This document shows positions 36,484 to 63,381 of a stretch of 64,000 nucleotides of DNA, one piece after another. The number at the start of each line of letters is the position of its first letter. Within the stretch, counting starts at the first letter, position 1. A program made the translations under genes and the position numbers. The stretch spans positions 62,001-126,000 of the forward strand of contig JAHDVK010000004.1 of assembly GCA_023384675.1 (NCBI GenBank), written 5' to 3'. The DNA comes from Bryobacteraceae bacterium (GTDB lineage: Bacteria; Acidobacteriota; Terriglobia; Bryobacterales; Bryobacteraceae). Under the pieces are notes generated by a model. It worked only from the letters and a program-made list of their open reading frames with translations. It ran no database searches and was not told the origin of the DNA.

Positions 36484-36490
36484 TGCCGGA

Positions 36491-36497
36491 TACAATA
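36491..36497. promoter_or_regulatory. Bidirectional overlapping -10 in a 22-bp divergent gap
   Basis: ACAATA/TATTGT is read on both strands. On plus, TACAAT (36491-36496) is 9 nt before the ATG at 36506. On minus, TATTGT (36497-36492) is 8 nt before the ATG at 36483. Both transcripts would be leaderless or nearly so. No Shine-Dalgarno sequence fits in the 22-bp gap. Confidence 0.55.
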
Positions 36498-36505
36498 TCA
36501 CCACC

Positions 36506-50327: not shown

Positions 50328-51761
50328 CTATTCCACGCGTAGCGGCCCGAACACCGGGCAGGGCATGTTCGCTTCGTCCGCCAGATTCAGGTAAGGATCT
50401 TTGCCGTAACCATAGTGAACGCGGGCGCCCTCCGGCAGCTTGCCGCCGAAAAGCAACTCGACCGTGTTCGAGGAGCCGGGCAGCAGGCGCTGCCGGAAGA
50501 TCAGCGGCACGGGCTTGCCTTCGGCGTTGTGAATGGTGAAGCCATTCAGCCGTCCCGAGTGGACCAGCCGGCCATTGACCGAGGAGAACTCAACCAGAAC
50601 GCGGCTGCCATCCAGGCGTGCGCGCAGCGGGCGGGGCCCGGGCGCGAGTTTGCCCTCGGCGAGGTTGGCCAGACGCTGCCCGAGAACCAAATAGGAGTCC
50701 GTTCCGACGTGGATGCCGTCGTCGAGTTCCAGATCGATCGCGGTGGTCATGCCCACATTGCGGAAAAGGCCCTCGATACGCCGCTGGGCGTCCTGGACCG
50801 CGTGCCACTCGTCGATGTTGGTGTCATTGACGTGACGGCCGATCTGGACATAGTAAAAAGGCAAGTCCGGCTGCCGGAAGTCCACCCGGACAGATTCGAT
50901 GAGCGACTGGAACTTGGCCGCGAACGCGGGAGCAGCCTTCGGGTTGGCGTCGGACTCACCCTGATACCACAGCACGCCCGCGATGCGTCCACCCACCGCG
51001 AGAAACCGCCGCAGCATTCCACCATACAGCGAAGCCCCGCCCTCGCCTTTCAACGCGGGCGACCACTGGTCCATCGAGGTCCCGCCATGCGCGCTGGGGA
51101 TCAGGCCAATGGGGACTCCGGTCCGCCGCACCCTCTCAAGAGCAAAAGGCAGACCCACGCCCGCACCCTTGACACGCGCGGCAATGGCCTTGCGCAGCGC
51201 TTCTCCGCTCAACGGCGCTTTCGGCTCGCCTGAATTGCGCCGCCAGTGAAAACTATCCACGGCGTCTTCGAGCCGGTGCAACGGCTCCTCGGCGGGCACC
51301 CACTGGTCGGCCATATTGAAGCTGTAAACCTGGGCGGAAGGAACGGGCACGTTCTTCAGGTCGCCGACGCCCTGCATGTTCGACTGCCCGGCGAGCATCC
51401 ACAGGTCCCCCACCAGCAGGGGCTCCACCGCAAGTACGCCGTTCGCCCCCGTGATGCGCACTTCCATGCGATAGGGGCCGCCCGCGGGCACGCGGGTCAG
51501 ATTCACTCCCCAGCTTTCCGCGCCCGCCGTACCCACCTGCCGCCAGTCGAAACCGGGCACGGTGAGCCCGCCGCGCAGCAACCGCGCTTCCACGGGACGG
51601 CCGGCGAGCTGTTTGGCGGAATTGCCTTCCAGCCGGAACGCGCCACGGTTGTCTGCTTCGCGCTGCACCACCTGGTAGGGAACCACGCCGCCGGTGATCT
51701 CAAACGTCTGCGCGGGGGCGGCCGCCGCCAGCGCCGCCAGAAGCGGGAACACAAGTCGCAT
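50328..51761 (-). CDS. Secreted sialate O-acetylesterase-like SGNH hydrolase
   Basis: A 477-residue protein with a signal peptide (MRLVFPLLAALAAAAPAQ). The SGNH-type nucleophile motif is WMLAGQSNMQGVG at about residues 121-133. The oxyanion and catalytic-site segments IPSAHGGTSMDQW and GVLWYQGESDAN follow, with the His-containing DDGIHVGTDSY later. It removes acetyl groups from sialic acid or another glycan. The gene is divergent from an oxidoreductase gene across 22 bp. Its ATG is 8 nt after a minus-strand TATAAT. Confidence 0.91.
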   Translation of the reverse strand: MRLVFPLLAALAAAAPAQTFEITGGVVPYQVVQREADNRGAFRLEGNSAKQLAGRPVEARLLRGGLTVPGFDWRQVGTAGAESWGVNLTRVPAGGPYRMEVRITGANGVLAVEPLLVGDLWMLAGQSNMQGVGDLKNVPVPSAQVYSFNMADQWVPAEEPLHRLEDAVDSFHWRRNSGEPKAPLSGEALRKAIAARVKGAGVGLPFALERVRRTGVPIGLIPSAHGGTSMDQWSPALKGEGGASLYGGMLRRFLAVGGRIAGVLWYQGESDANPKAAPAFAAKFQSLIESVRVDFRQPDLPFYYVQIGRHVNDTNIDEWHAVQDAQRRIEGLFRNVGMTTAIDLELDDGIHVGTDSYLVLGQRLANLAEGKLAPGPRPLRARLDGSRVLVEFSSVNGRLVHSGRLNGFTIHNAEGKPVPLIFRQRLLPGSSNTVELLFGGKLPEGARVHYGYGKDPYLNLADEANMPCPVFGPLRVE

Positions 51762-51769
51762 AGGTCCCG

Positions 51770-51777
51770 ATTATAAT
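51770..51777. promoter_or_regulatory. Bidirectional palindromic -10 (ATTATAAT) in a 22-bp divergent gap
   Basis: ATTATAAT gives TATAAT on both strands. On plus, TATAAT (51772-51777) is 6 nt before ATG 51784. On minus, TATAAT (51775-51770) is 8 nt before ATG 51761. Both mRNAs would be leaderless or nearly so. Confidence 0.6.
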
Positions 51778-51783
51778 GCAACC

Positions 51784-52998
51784 ATGCCGTCCGCATTACC
51801 CGCCCGCCGCGCCATCCTGCGTGCCGCCGGCCAGGCCGCCCTGGCCTGGACCGCCGCTTCCTACGCCCGCATCCTGGGCGCGAACGACAAAATCAATCTC
51901 GGTTTGATCGGCGCAGGCGAGCGCGGCCGCGGCGTGATGAACGGTTTTATCAAAACGGGCGGCGTGAACGTCACGGCGGTGTGCGATGTGTACGCCGAGA
52001 TGATCGACCGCGCCCAGCGCGCCGCGCCGGATGCGAAAGGCTACCTGGATTACCGCGAGTTGCTCGCGCAGAAGAACGTAGACGCGGTGCTCATCGGCAC
52101 CCCCGACCACTGGCACGCGGCCAACAGCATCGACGCCCTCAACGCCGGCAAGGACGTGTATGTGGAAAAGCCGCTCACGCTGCGCATCGAGGAAGGACCG
52201 GAGATTGTCAAGGCCGCGCGTGTGAACAACCGCGTCTGCCAGGTGGGCTTGCAGCAACGTTCCGGCGCGCATTACATCGAGGCCAAGCAGAAGTACTTCG
52301 ACACGAATGCGCTCGGCCGGATCACGCTCGTCCGCACCTGGTGGCATGGCAACACCTATCATCTGCGCCGCGCGCCCGCTTCGCTGGCCACGCGACCGTC
52401 GAACCTCGATTGGGCGCGCTTTCTCGGTCCGGTGAAGTGGCGCGAGTGGGATCCGCAGCAGTTCTGGAACTGGCGCGCGTACCTCGACTTCGGCGGCGGT
52501 CAGGTGACCGACCTGTTCACGCACTGGATCGACGTGGTCCACATGTTCCTGGGCCGCGACATACCCACCTCGGGTGTCGCCGCGGGCGGCGTCTACCACT
52601 ACAAGGACGGACGCACCGCGCCCGATACCATCAATGTGCTGCTTGAATACGGCGGCGACTACACGGTGACTTTCGAGGCGACCCTGGCGCCCGGCATCCG
52701 CGGCGAGGCAATCGAGTTCTGCGGCACCGAGGGCAAATTGTGGATCAGCCGCTCGCGCTATGAGTTCCTGCGCGCGGGCAAGGGGGCCGAACCGGTGGAG
52801 GTCAAGGGCCCGGGCTACGACTTCACGCTCGATCACATCAAGAACTTCCTGGATTGCGTGAAATCCCGCCAGAAACCGAATTGCGATGTGCTCGACGGGC
52901 ACCGTTCCGCGCAAGCGTCCCATCTCGGCAACATCAGCTACGTTCAGAAACGGCGGCTGAATTTCGACCCCATCCGCGAAGAGATCCTGCCTTTCTAA
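51784..52998 (+). CDS. Gfo/Idh/MocA-family oxidoreductase, probably exported
   Basis: A 404-residue NAD(P)-dependent sugar dehydrogenase-like protein. The N-terminus has paired arginines and a hydrophobic stretch (ARRAILRAAGQAALAW), a weak Tat-type signal. INLGLIGAGERGRGVMNGF is the Rossmann loop. GTPDHWHAANSIDALNAGKD, then VYVEKPLTLRIEEG, carry the EKP motif. LDFGGGQVTDLFTHWIDVVH contains the usual Asp/His active-site positions. The substrate is unknown. The stop is 1 nt before the GTG of the amidohydrolase gene. Confidence 0.92.
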   Translation: MPSALPARRAILRAAGQAALAWTAASYARILGANDKINLGLIGAGERGRGVMNGFIKTGGVNVTAVCDVYAEMIDRAQRAAPDAKGYLDYRELLAQKNVDAVLIGTPDHWHAANSIDALNAGKDVYVEKPLTLRIEEGPEIVKAARVNNRVCQVGLQQRSGAHYIEAKQKYFDTNALGRITLVRTWWHGNTYHLRRAPASLATRPSNLDWARFLGPVKWREWDPQQFWNWRAYLDFGGGQVTDLFTHWIDVVHMFLGRDIPTSGVAAGGVYHYKDGRTAPDTINVLLEYGGDYTVTFEATLAPGIRGEAIEFCGTEGKLWISRSRYEFLRAGKGAEPVEVKGPGYDFTLDHIKNFLDCVKSRQKPNCDVLDGHRSAQASHLGNISYVQKRRLNFDPIREEILPF

Positions 52999-57175: not shown

Positions 57176-58379
57176 CACGTTTCGGCGTTCGGCGCTGCTG
57201 ACCGCCGCCGCCGTCACCCTCGCCGCCCTGGCCGGTCTCACGCTCACCGTCCAGGCTACCCACCAGGGCGATTGGACGGGGCTATTTTGCATCGGCAGCA
57301 AATTCGCGGGCGGAATGCAAAATCTCCCTCCCGGCCGGGCGTTCCCGGACTCGAACGGCTACGACGGCCAGTTTTATCGCGCCGTTGCCCACAACCCCTG
57401 GTTGCGCACCGAAGCGTGGCGCGCCATCGACGACCCGGAGATGCGTTACCGGCGCATTCTGATCCCCCTCGCCGCATGGCTGCTGGCCGCGGGCCAGCCC
57501 GCGCTGATCGACGGCGCCTACGTCGCCGCGATCCTCATCTGCCTGTTCCTGGGAACCTACTTTCTTGCCCTGTGGCTCGCCCGCGAGGGACTGCCCCCCG
57601 CAGCCGGCGCGGTCTTCCTGTTCCTGCCCGGCACCTTGATCTCGCTGGACCGGATGATGCCCGACATCGCTCTCTACACCATCCTGGCCGCGCTGCTCGC
57701 GGTGTGGCGCGGCCGCCTGACGCCTGCCGTCGCGGTTCTGCTCGCGCTCGCGCCGCTGGTGCGCACCATCGGACTGCTGGCGTGCGCGGCGGTCGCGATC
57801 GCCCTGATCTCAGCGCGCAGATGGCGCGATGCTGGCATGATCCCCTTTCTTGGCTTGCCGGTCGTCGCCTGGTGGGTGTGGTTGAATTCTCAACTCGTGG
57901 GCCAGGTCTCCGGCGTCTCGACCCCCTCTACTCCAGGCCAACTGCTCGGCCTGCCCCACTGGCTGCTCAAGCAGCCGGGCTATGGACTCCTCCTGAGGAT
58001 CTTCGATCCCGTGCCCTATCCGGGCCTGCCACCCGCAATCGAGACCGCCACTCAGGTCCTGGACATCCTCGCGTGGCTGGGCATGCTCTTCTCCGTCGTG
58101 ATTGTGACGCTATCATGGCGCCGTTTTACCGGAAACCTGCCGGGCCTGCTGATCCTGCTCTGGATCCCACTGTTCCTGCTGGCCAGCGGCCGGGGCTTCT
58201 GGCGCGATCCCTACTCCTACCCCCGCGCGTTTACGCCACTGCTTGGCCTGCTCTTGTGGGAGGCTGCGCGGCGCCGTCAGTGGTGGTTCGCGCTTCCGCT
58301 TCTGCTGGTCACGCTGCGGGTGGGCGCGCAACTGTTCCCTCAGGCTTCGCTTGGTCTGCGCTGGCTGCTGGGGTCCTGA
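57159..58379 (+). CDS. Polytopic membrane protein, glycosyltransferase-like, unknown function
   Basis: A 406-residue protein with about nine to ten hydrophobic helices. An early extracytoplasmic loop reads [20 protein letters not shown], and an Asp-rich [16 protein letters not shown] follows. The overall layout (first helix, polar loop with Asp and Tyr, then alternating helices) resembles GT-C or DUF2029-type lipid-linked glycosyltransferases, but I see no decisive motif. The ATG at 57159 overlaps the flavoprotein gene by 17 nt, so it belongs to the same operon. GH15 follows after 44 nt. Confidence 0.72.
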
Positions 58380-61584: not shown

Positions 61585-63381
61585 ATGCAACCGTTACGCA
61601 AAACCGAGCCGACTCCACGCCCGGAGATCGTGCCGCAGCCCATGACGCCGCGTCCCGGCGGCCCACGCAAGTCACTGATTCTTTTTGCATTGGTGGCCGC
61701 AGTGGGCGTTGGGCTCTATCTCTTCCGCGAGCCCATCGCTCAAACCTTCACAGGCGGAGGCGGTGGCGGACCCGTACTGGTGAAGACCACACCCGTCACC
61801 CGCGGCACGCTGGAAAGGACAATCCGGCTATCCGGCGCCACAGCGGCGGAGCGCTACGTGTCGCTGGTGGCGCCGCAACTTCGCGGCGGCCGCGGCGGCG
61901 GAATGTCGGTATCGGGTGGTGGCGGCGGCCGCGGCGGCGGCGGCATGGTCGTGACCATTTCCGCGGGTGGAGGCGGTGGAGGGGGTGGTTCGTCATCCTC
62001 TTCGTCCAGTTCCTCGTCTTCAACATCGAGTGCGGCCACGTCCGCGGTTTCTTCGGCCTTGAGCGGCGCCGGCGGGACCGGGAGTTCGACCATGGGAACC
62101 TCTAGCGCAGCGGCCTCGGGAGGCGGATCGTCGACGGGCGGGTTCCGCTCCTCCGGTACCAGCCGTTTCAGCGGAGCGTCCAGCCGGGGTTCTTCCGGTG
62201 GCTCGACAGGCGCGGCAAGTTCAGCGGCCACCGCGGCCTCAGCCGCCGGAGGCGGCGTTGACGCCGGGGCCATGGAAGGCATGAGCGGCGGCATCAGCGA
62301 CTTCATGCAGGTGCTCCAGAAGGCCGCGCCCGCGGGCAAGATGGTGAAGAAGGGCGATGTGGTGGCGGATTTCGACCGCCAATACCAGGAAACGCGGCTG
62401 GACGATTTCCGCTCCTCGGTCGAGCAGGGCGAGACGAACATCCGGAAGGTGGACTCGGAACTGGAAGTGACGCGCAAGGCTCGCGAATTGAACATCGAGC
62501 AGGCGCGCGCGGCGGTGGAGCGGGCCAAGCTGGATATCAAGACTACACCCGTCCGCAGCCAGATCCAGGCCGAGGTTTTGAAATTGGAGCTGGAGGAAGC
62601 TGAGGCGCAACTGCAGCGGCTTCTAAGTGAGGTGAAGTTCCAACAGATCAGCGAGCAGGCGCAGCGGCGCAACACCGAGATCGGCATGGAGCAGTCCCGC
62701 AAAGAGCTCCAGATGGCGCAGCGCAATATCGACCGGATGAGCATGAAGGCGCCCATGGACGGCATGGTGGTGATGCAGCAGACGTTCCGCAGCGGGGAGT
62801 TTGTGCAGATCCAGGAAGGCGACCAGCTCATGTCTGGGCAGATGTTCATGCAGATCGTGGACCCATCTTCAATGATGGTGTCCGCGTCGGTGAACCAGGC
62901 CGATGTGGAACTGATTCGCGTGGGCGCCACCGCTCGGCTGCACTTTGACGCCTACCCGGGACTGGAATTGCCGGGCCGCGTTGTGTCGATCGGCGCGATG
63001 ACGAAAACCGGCGGACAGCGCGCGGATTACGTCAAGGAGATTCCGGTGTATATCAAGGTGGAAGGCGCCGATTCCCGCATCATCCCCGATCTGAGCGTAA
63101 GCGCGGACGTGGTGATCGAAGAGGCGCGCGAGCAAATCCTGGTGCCGCTCGAAAGCGTACGCCGGGACGGCGACGGGGGCCAACCGTATGTGTTCGTGCG
63201 CACCGCGACGGGCTTCGAGAAACGGCAAGTGGAATTGGGCCTGACGAGCAACGTGAAGGCAGCGGTGAAGTCGGGGCTTCGCGAGGGCGAGACGGTGGCG
63301 GTGGAAACGCCGCCGGTGAAACAGGAAAGCGGAAAGCGTCCCGTGGCGAATGTGCCGCGCGAGACTCCGCCAGGAGCGTGA
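61585..63381 (+). CDS. HlyD-family periplasmic adaptor with large Gly/Ser-rich insert
   Basis: A 598-residue membrane-fusion protein. One transmembrane helix is at about 30-46. The first lipoyl half (VLVKTTPVTRGTLERTIRLS) is followed by a Gly/Ser-rich low-complexity stretch at about 98-230 (11 consecutive Ser at most). The hairpin then resumes at KMVKKGDVVADFDRQYQETR. A coiled-coil hairpin (about 270-380), the second lipoyl part (MSMKAPMDGMVVMQQTFRSG) and beta-barrel domains follow. It would link an inner-membrane ABC or RND pump to an outer-membrane channel. A second HlyD gene starts 1 nt after the stop. Confidence 0.88.
   Translation: MQPLRKTEPTPRPEIVPQPMTPRPGGPRKSLILFALVAAVGVGLYLFREPIAQTFTGGGGGGPVLVKTTPVTRGTLERTIRLSGATAAERYVSLVAPQLRGGRGGGMSVSGGGGGRGGGGMVVTISAGGGGGGGGSSSSSSSSSSSTSSAATSAVSSALSGAGGTGSSTMGTSSAAASGGGSSTGGFRSSGTSRFSGASSRGSSGGSTGAASSAATAASAAGGGVDAGAMEGMSGGISDFMQVLQKAAPAGKMVKKGDVVADFDRQYQETRLDDFRSSVEQGETNIRKVDSELEVTRKARELNIEQARAAVERAKLDIKTTPVRSQIQAEVLKLELEEAEAQLQRLLSEVKFQQISEQAQRRNTEIGMEQSRKELQMAQRNIDRMSMKAPMDGMVVMQQTFRSGEFVQIQEGDQLMSGQMFMQIVDPSSMMVSASVNQADVELIRVGATARLHFDAYPGLELPGRVVSIGAMTKTGGQRADYVKEIPVYIKVEGADSRIIPDLSVSADVVIEEAREQILVPLESVRRDGDGGQPYVFVRTATGFEKRQVELGLTSNVKAAVKSGLREGETVAVETPPVKQESGKRPVANVPRETPPGA

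Follow-up and report, generated by a model that had tools for sequence, protein, structure and literature searches.

The window, the whole 64,000-nucleotide stretch of DNA analysed here, contains a pair of divergent genes separated by a head-to-head intergenic gap of 22 bp at positions 51762–51783. On the minus strand (50328–51761) lies a SASA-type acetylesterase of 477 amino acids (PF03629, 3.6e-51) whose N terminus appears Sec-like by eye, and on the plus strand (51784–52998) a Gfo/Idh/MocA oxidoreductase of 404 amino acids (PF01408, 8e-20) whose N terminus, again judged by eye, is Tat-like. The gap is bounded directly by the first bases of the two ATG codons, at 51761 for the esterase and 51784 for the oxidoreductase, and these start codons agree with the secretion-signal-like N termini and with the comparison of orthologues. 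The core of the gap is the palindrome ATTATAAT (51770–51777). Its symmetry ends at 8 bp, and it gives the -10 hexamer TATAAT on both strands, at 51772–51777 on the plus strand, 6 nt before the oxidoreductase ATG, and at 51770–51775 on the minus strand, 8 nt before the esterase ATG. Both the exact length between the minus and plus ATGs and the palindromic -10 at these distances had been reported in a sequence-only reading of the window, and both are correct. We propose that the gap constitutes the whole of a shared core promoter. No -35/-10 promoter was matched on either strand of 51600–51950 at the threshold of the tool used, and a classical sigma-70 promoter, with a -35 hexamer 16–18 bp before the -10, was rejected for both strands of this region.

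The evidence for the box is strongest on the oxidoreductase side. Of 80 orthologues, 79 have enough upstream DNA to be counted (L080 was omitted). TANNNT is found 5–10 nt before the start in 66 of these and is exactly TATAAT in 47, most commonly at a distance of 6 nt; the count takes the best box at 5–10 nt from an in-frame start no more than 60 nt from the expected one. Exact TATAAT preceded none of the out-of-frame starts used as a control in the same 79 orthologues. Because of this conservation, a leaderless-type promoter is firmly predicted on this side of the shared box. The box A is 11 bp before the ATG, with GCAACC between box and ATG, which is the arrangement of a TA-led leaderless gene. 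Given that about 7 nt separate the -10 from the transcription start (PMC12825309), the first base of the oxidoreductase RNA would be the A of its ATG, and the start is predicted at or next to 51784. The named orthologues are mostly from Bryobacterales or other Acidobacteria. One, L015, is 81% identical to the query and comes from a record titled Arcobacter sp., a label that is probably wrong. By eye, a TAGTGC-like hexamer is seen 10–11 bp before TATAAT in orthologues L022, L024, L025, L026, L027, L030 and L047; it could be an activator site, its spacing being unlike that of a -35.

The esterase in its own species also has the arrangement of a TA-led leaderless gene, with the box A 13 bp before the ATG. 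Neither GGAG nor GAGG is present 4–12 nt before this ATG, there is no other TANNNT in the 45 nt before it, and transcription is predicted to start at about 51761–51765. The esterase adjoins the oxidoreductase orthologue at 8 of the 80 orthologue loci, and also in further relatives. In nine distant relatives about 150 to 1600 bp lie between the two genes, and in seven of them (L013, L014, L018, L019, L020, L033 and L143) the esterase has a box 17–22 nt before its ATG together with a Shine–Dalgarno sequence. The other two are L138, which has a leaderless-like esterase box although its gap is long, and L023, which could not be resolved. Since seven of the nine have a separate esterase box and a Shine–Dalgarno sequence, the esterase box of the focal pair looks derived, and the two promoters are likely to have merged with loss of the esterase leader. 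L135 has a gap of 28 bp, with the esterase box 13 nt from the ATG; directly after this box comes GGAG, which the transcript may not include. The esterase box of two congeners is 11 nt from the ATG, and no Shine–Dalgarno sequence is seen there; two congeners carry CAATATAATGC in place of the palindrome, with gaps of 25–31 bp, and no esterase match was found in a third. At none of the 13 other aligned loci (or 12, should L017 and L134 belong to a single genome) does ATTATAAT occur; the relatives retain TATAAT and its distance from the ATG, not the palindrome, which is therefore rejected as a conserved element of the focal locus.

The octamer itself is scarce. In the window ATTATAAT has a single copy, the focal one, where 0.04 are expected, and 4 of 100 shuffled windows contain at least one. 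The 5.73-Mb genome has five copies, compared with three of a control pattern read backwards. The octamer was rejected as a genome-wide signal: two of the five sites are flanked by starts on both sides within 10 nt, a third by ATGs at distances of 10 and 33 nt and a fourth by TTG codons at 7 and 24 nt, and the fifth is one-sided with GTG. A sample of 838 kb from the own genome was used to follow the looser TANNNT; its 718 genes were called by a script that makes no use of upstream signals. At distances of 6, 7, 8, 9 and 10 nt before the 718 starts it occurs 20, 23, 13, 20 and 11 times, respectively, compared with about 5 per position at 16–39 nt. Counts at 6–10 nt are 41 of 220 for divergent genes, 33 of 258 for tandem genes whose gap is at least 20 bp and 11 of 236 for tandem genes with a smaller gap.

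The sample includes 12 divergent gaps of 15–45 bp, the focal gap among them. Three of the 12 (22, 22 and 28 bp) have overlapping two-sided TANNNT boxes at 5–12 nt, whereas shuffles give a mean of 0.21 such gaps and none of 2000 reaches three, the 12-nt limit having been picked after the list of gaps had been viewed. At 5–10 nt there are two (shuffle mean 0.09, with 9 of 2000 reaching two), and at 5–9 nt there is the focal gap only, 121 of 2000 shuffles having at least one. That the excess in the own genome varies with the distance range chosen counts against the reading of a shared box.

The sequence-only reading had also pointed to a second 22-bp gap of the same layout in the window, had suggested searching the genome for similar pairs, and had taken a constant length and an association with secreted glycan-related genes as the marks of a compact class of bidirectional promoter. 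The second gap, at 36484–36505 between a sulfatase and an SMP-30/gluconolactonase-like gene, is indeed exactly 22 bp and has overlapping boxes, TACAAT at 36491–36496 on the plus strand, 9 nt before its ATG, and TATTGT at 36497–36492 on the minus strand, 8 nt before its ATG, but this core is not a palindrome. The gene caller had other starts there, and this gap is outside both the 110 divergent pairs and the own-genome gap counts. The 838-kb sample did yield two further gaps with overlapping boxes, of 22 and 28 bp. Just to the left of the window, a third 22-bp divergent gap (G000:C2:61744-61765) has TACAAT and TATTGT boxes that overlap; it separates the gene of a zincin-like metallopeptidase from one whose 125-amino-acid product has no Pfam match. 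At L004 (G000:C41, 222880-222907) a 28-bp divergent gap has ATTATAAT 10 nt from both ATGs, and one of the genes beside it encodes another Gfo/Idh/MocA protein. Further ATG-to-ATG gaps of 22 bp that have no A/T core are present in the window at 57293–57314 and 62850–62871, so that this length alone is not rare. Among 110 called divergent pairs there are two gaps of 22 bp and three of 28 bp with no clear peak, and 22 bp was rejected as a favoured length. An 8-bp shared core with 6–8 nt on each side gives gaps of 20–24 bp; 22 bp is thus a matter of geometry, not a rule, and with lengths of 19–28 bp seen it does not define a class.

In 237 genomes of the family, presumably the Bryobacteraceae, the two-sided pattern CAT-N5-9-ATTATAAT-N5-9-ATG, which leaves GTG and TTG starts outside, was found at 43 sites in 35 genomes, the control giving 2 sites in 2 of the 237. 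Thirty family loci, drawn from these 43 sites and including the focal one, were read, and 26 of them have ORFs of at least 80 amino acids on both sides. Three identical copies of the pattern in one genome (G174) point to a repeat element; at the one that was read (L181), one ORF has 5 amino acids and the other reaches beyond the end of the contig. A set of 150 genomes contains 869 copies of ATTATAAT. One-sided ATG hits number 235 (control 59) and two-sided sites 30, compared with 15.9 two-sided sites expected if the two sides are independent. This is an excess of about twofold, with P = 0.001, a value that ignores the kinship of the genomes and repeat copies. Where ATTATAAT has at least one ATG it is two-sided in 30 of 205 cases (14.6%), the corresponding figure for SNTATAAT being 223 of 3561 (6.3%). 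Over the phylum the pattern has 56 sites in 38 of 297 genomes (control 14 sites in 11 genomes), and elsewhere in the phylum two ORFs are present at 5 of the 29 loci read, as against the 26 of 30 within the family. A phylum-wide class of promoters is therefore unsupported outside the family; within the family such a class seems to exist. A compact two-sided promoter survives as the best reading, with such sites recurring in the family, but a fixed length, a link with glycan genes and conservation of the palindrome at the focal locus are not supported.

The link with secreted glycan genes is lost because 14 of the 30 two-sided family loci pair an FGGY kinase (PF00370), which from its motif we take to be a glycerol kinase, with a short protein that begins MFFRR or nearly so, and the zincin pair does not fit it either. 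The MFFRR protein (L192–L281) is about 140 amino acids long, is uncharacterised, is present in 217 of the 237 family genomes and gave no Pfam match in the one protein tested. Of 90 upstream regions of its gene that were read, 30 from the top hits and 60 chosen to span genera, 86 could be parsed (L208, L209, L237 and L272 were left out). The gene is head-to-head with the FGGY kinase at 31 of the 86 parsed loci, in 15 genera. The boxes of the two genes overlap at 25 of these 31, in 11 of the 15 genera and in gaps from 21 bp upwards; the kinase start used was whichever candidate had the best box, a choice that biases this count towards overlap. ATTATAAT lies between the two genes at 21 of the 31 loci and in 7 of the 15 genera. 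At loci with no head-to-head kinase within 330 bp, it is found at 1 of 55 and in 1 of 33 genera. At the level of genera, Fisher's test gives P = 0.0006, which becomes 0.0016 when g5 is removed and 0.005 when g84 is removed as well, these being the two genera that the query and the choice of G240 favoured; the sets of head-to-head and other genera overlap. From the difference between 7 of 15 and 1 of 33 genera, symmetry of the box appears to go with the presence of a partner able to read it. The MFFRR gene of the own species (L222) is neither head-to-head with a kinase nor leaderless-like, which is against a universal rule.

We think it probable, from the sequence evidence, that the 22-bp gap is one sigma-70-type -10 box common to two genes that are leaderless or nearly so. 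The sequence, spacing and conservation pattern of the focal gap have been demonstrated, and from them we infer its two-way activity, start points, mode of translation and order of events. A single pseudo-symmetric -10 element would be used in both directions, polymerase facing one way starting at, or 1–2 bases from, the oxidoreductase ATG and polymerase facing the other way starting 0 to ~4 nt before the esterase ATG. With starts this close to the ATGs, both mRNAs would be without a Shine–Dalgarno leader and would be translated by the leaderless route, a consequence that the sequence-only reading had left undrawn. As no -35-like hexamer was found on either side, recognition would depend on the -10, with a possible contribution from proteins that bind inside the coding sequences. 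In the ancestral state the oxidoreductase would already have been leaderless and the esterase would have had a separate promoter and a Shine–Dalgarno sequence; the intergenic DNA would then have shrunk in the own lineage until the two promoters merged.

The alternative that survives best, although we regard it as unlikely, is a promoter acting one way, in which the box serves the leaderless oxidoreductase alone, the mirror box arises simply because TATA is self-complementary, and the esterase is weakly transcribed or has its promoter within the oxidoreductase gene. It would account for a conserved oxidoreductase box opposite an esterase box that is not conserved, for the missing palindrome in two congeners, and for the finding that an ATG at the mirror position is present at 223 of 3561 non-palindromic SNTATAAT sites compared with 38 of 1071 in the control. 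It does not explain why the esterase has no other upstream TANNNT and no GGAG/GAGG within the distances searched, nor why palindromes accompany head-to-head neighbours at the kinase/MFFRR loci. A perfect 8-bp palindrome between two possibly co-regulated genes might also be the operator of a dimeric regulator that overlaps the start region by accident, but this is very improbable, since the symmetry goes no further than 8 bp, each half matches the -10 consensus at the spacing found genome-wide, and relatives have kept TATAAT and its ATG distance, not the palindrome. Least credible is a chance coincidence of short divergent gaps and A/T octamers with the 22-bp gaps unrelated, for, although gaps of this length occur without an A/T core, 22 bp is not conserved among relatives and the focal gap alone is two-sided at 5–9 nt, as in 121 of 2000 shuffles, the wider ranges give two or three of the 12 gaps, which is rare in shuffles, the pattern recurs in the family with ORFs on both sides, and the oxidoreductase box is conserved.

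The shared -10 may also be an instance of a recurrent family architecture, a suggestion in which our doubt slightly outweighs our confidence. Here a symmetric -10 would form the whole intergenic space, both mRNAs would be leaderless, and the arrangement would arise when neighbouring promoters merge and, as at the kinase/MFFRR pair, would be kept or recur across many genera; with one orientation of polymerase at a time, the two genes would be obligately coupled.

Bidirectional promoters in which a pseudo-symmetric -10 is used on both strands have been described (Warman et al. 2021; PMC10268837, PMC12825309), and the focal ATTATAAT at 51770–51777 resembles them in being a -10 hexamer on both strands with overlapping bases. 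In these sources, divergent starts are 7–25 bp apart, 18 bp being the commonest and 10 and 23 also common (PMC12825309), and the RNA made in the divergent direction is frequently non-coding or antisense (PMC10268837, PMC12825309); the word "leaderless" occurs 0 times in PMC12825309. The focal divergent starts are predicted to be ~19–23 bp apart, or 23 bp if both are the A of the ATG. Unlike in the bidirectional promoters described, the focal start codons sit at the predicted transcript starts, and the box with its two short flanks makes up the whole intergenic region. TA-led leaderless genes have TANNNT ~12 bp before the start codon and were found in 3 of 3 Acidobacteria genomes, where they account for an average of 13.3% of genes (Zheng et al. 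2011, PMC3160421). They were classified singly, "divergent" being absent from that paper, whereas the focal box would serve two such genes. Leaderless genes and bidirectional -10 promoters are thus both published already; a leaderless gene pair with one common -10 conserved across genera was not found among the papers listed in the literature searches. In this lineage two protein genes, neither with a leader, seem to be served by a symmetric -10, and for one pair this seems to hold across many genera. At the kinase/MFFRR loci a gene can be compared in the presence and in the absence of a head-to-head partner, a natural comparison that bears on whether -10 symmetry is selected, on the change from Shine–Dalgarno-led to leaderless genes and on the minimum size of a divergent promoter.
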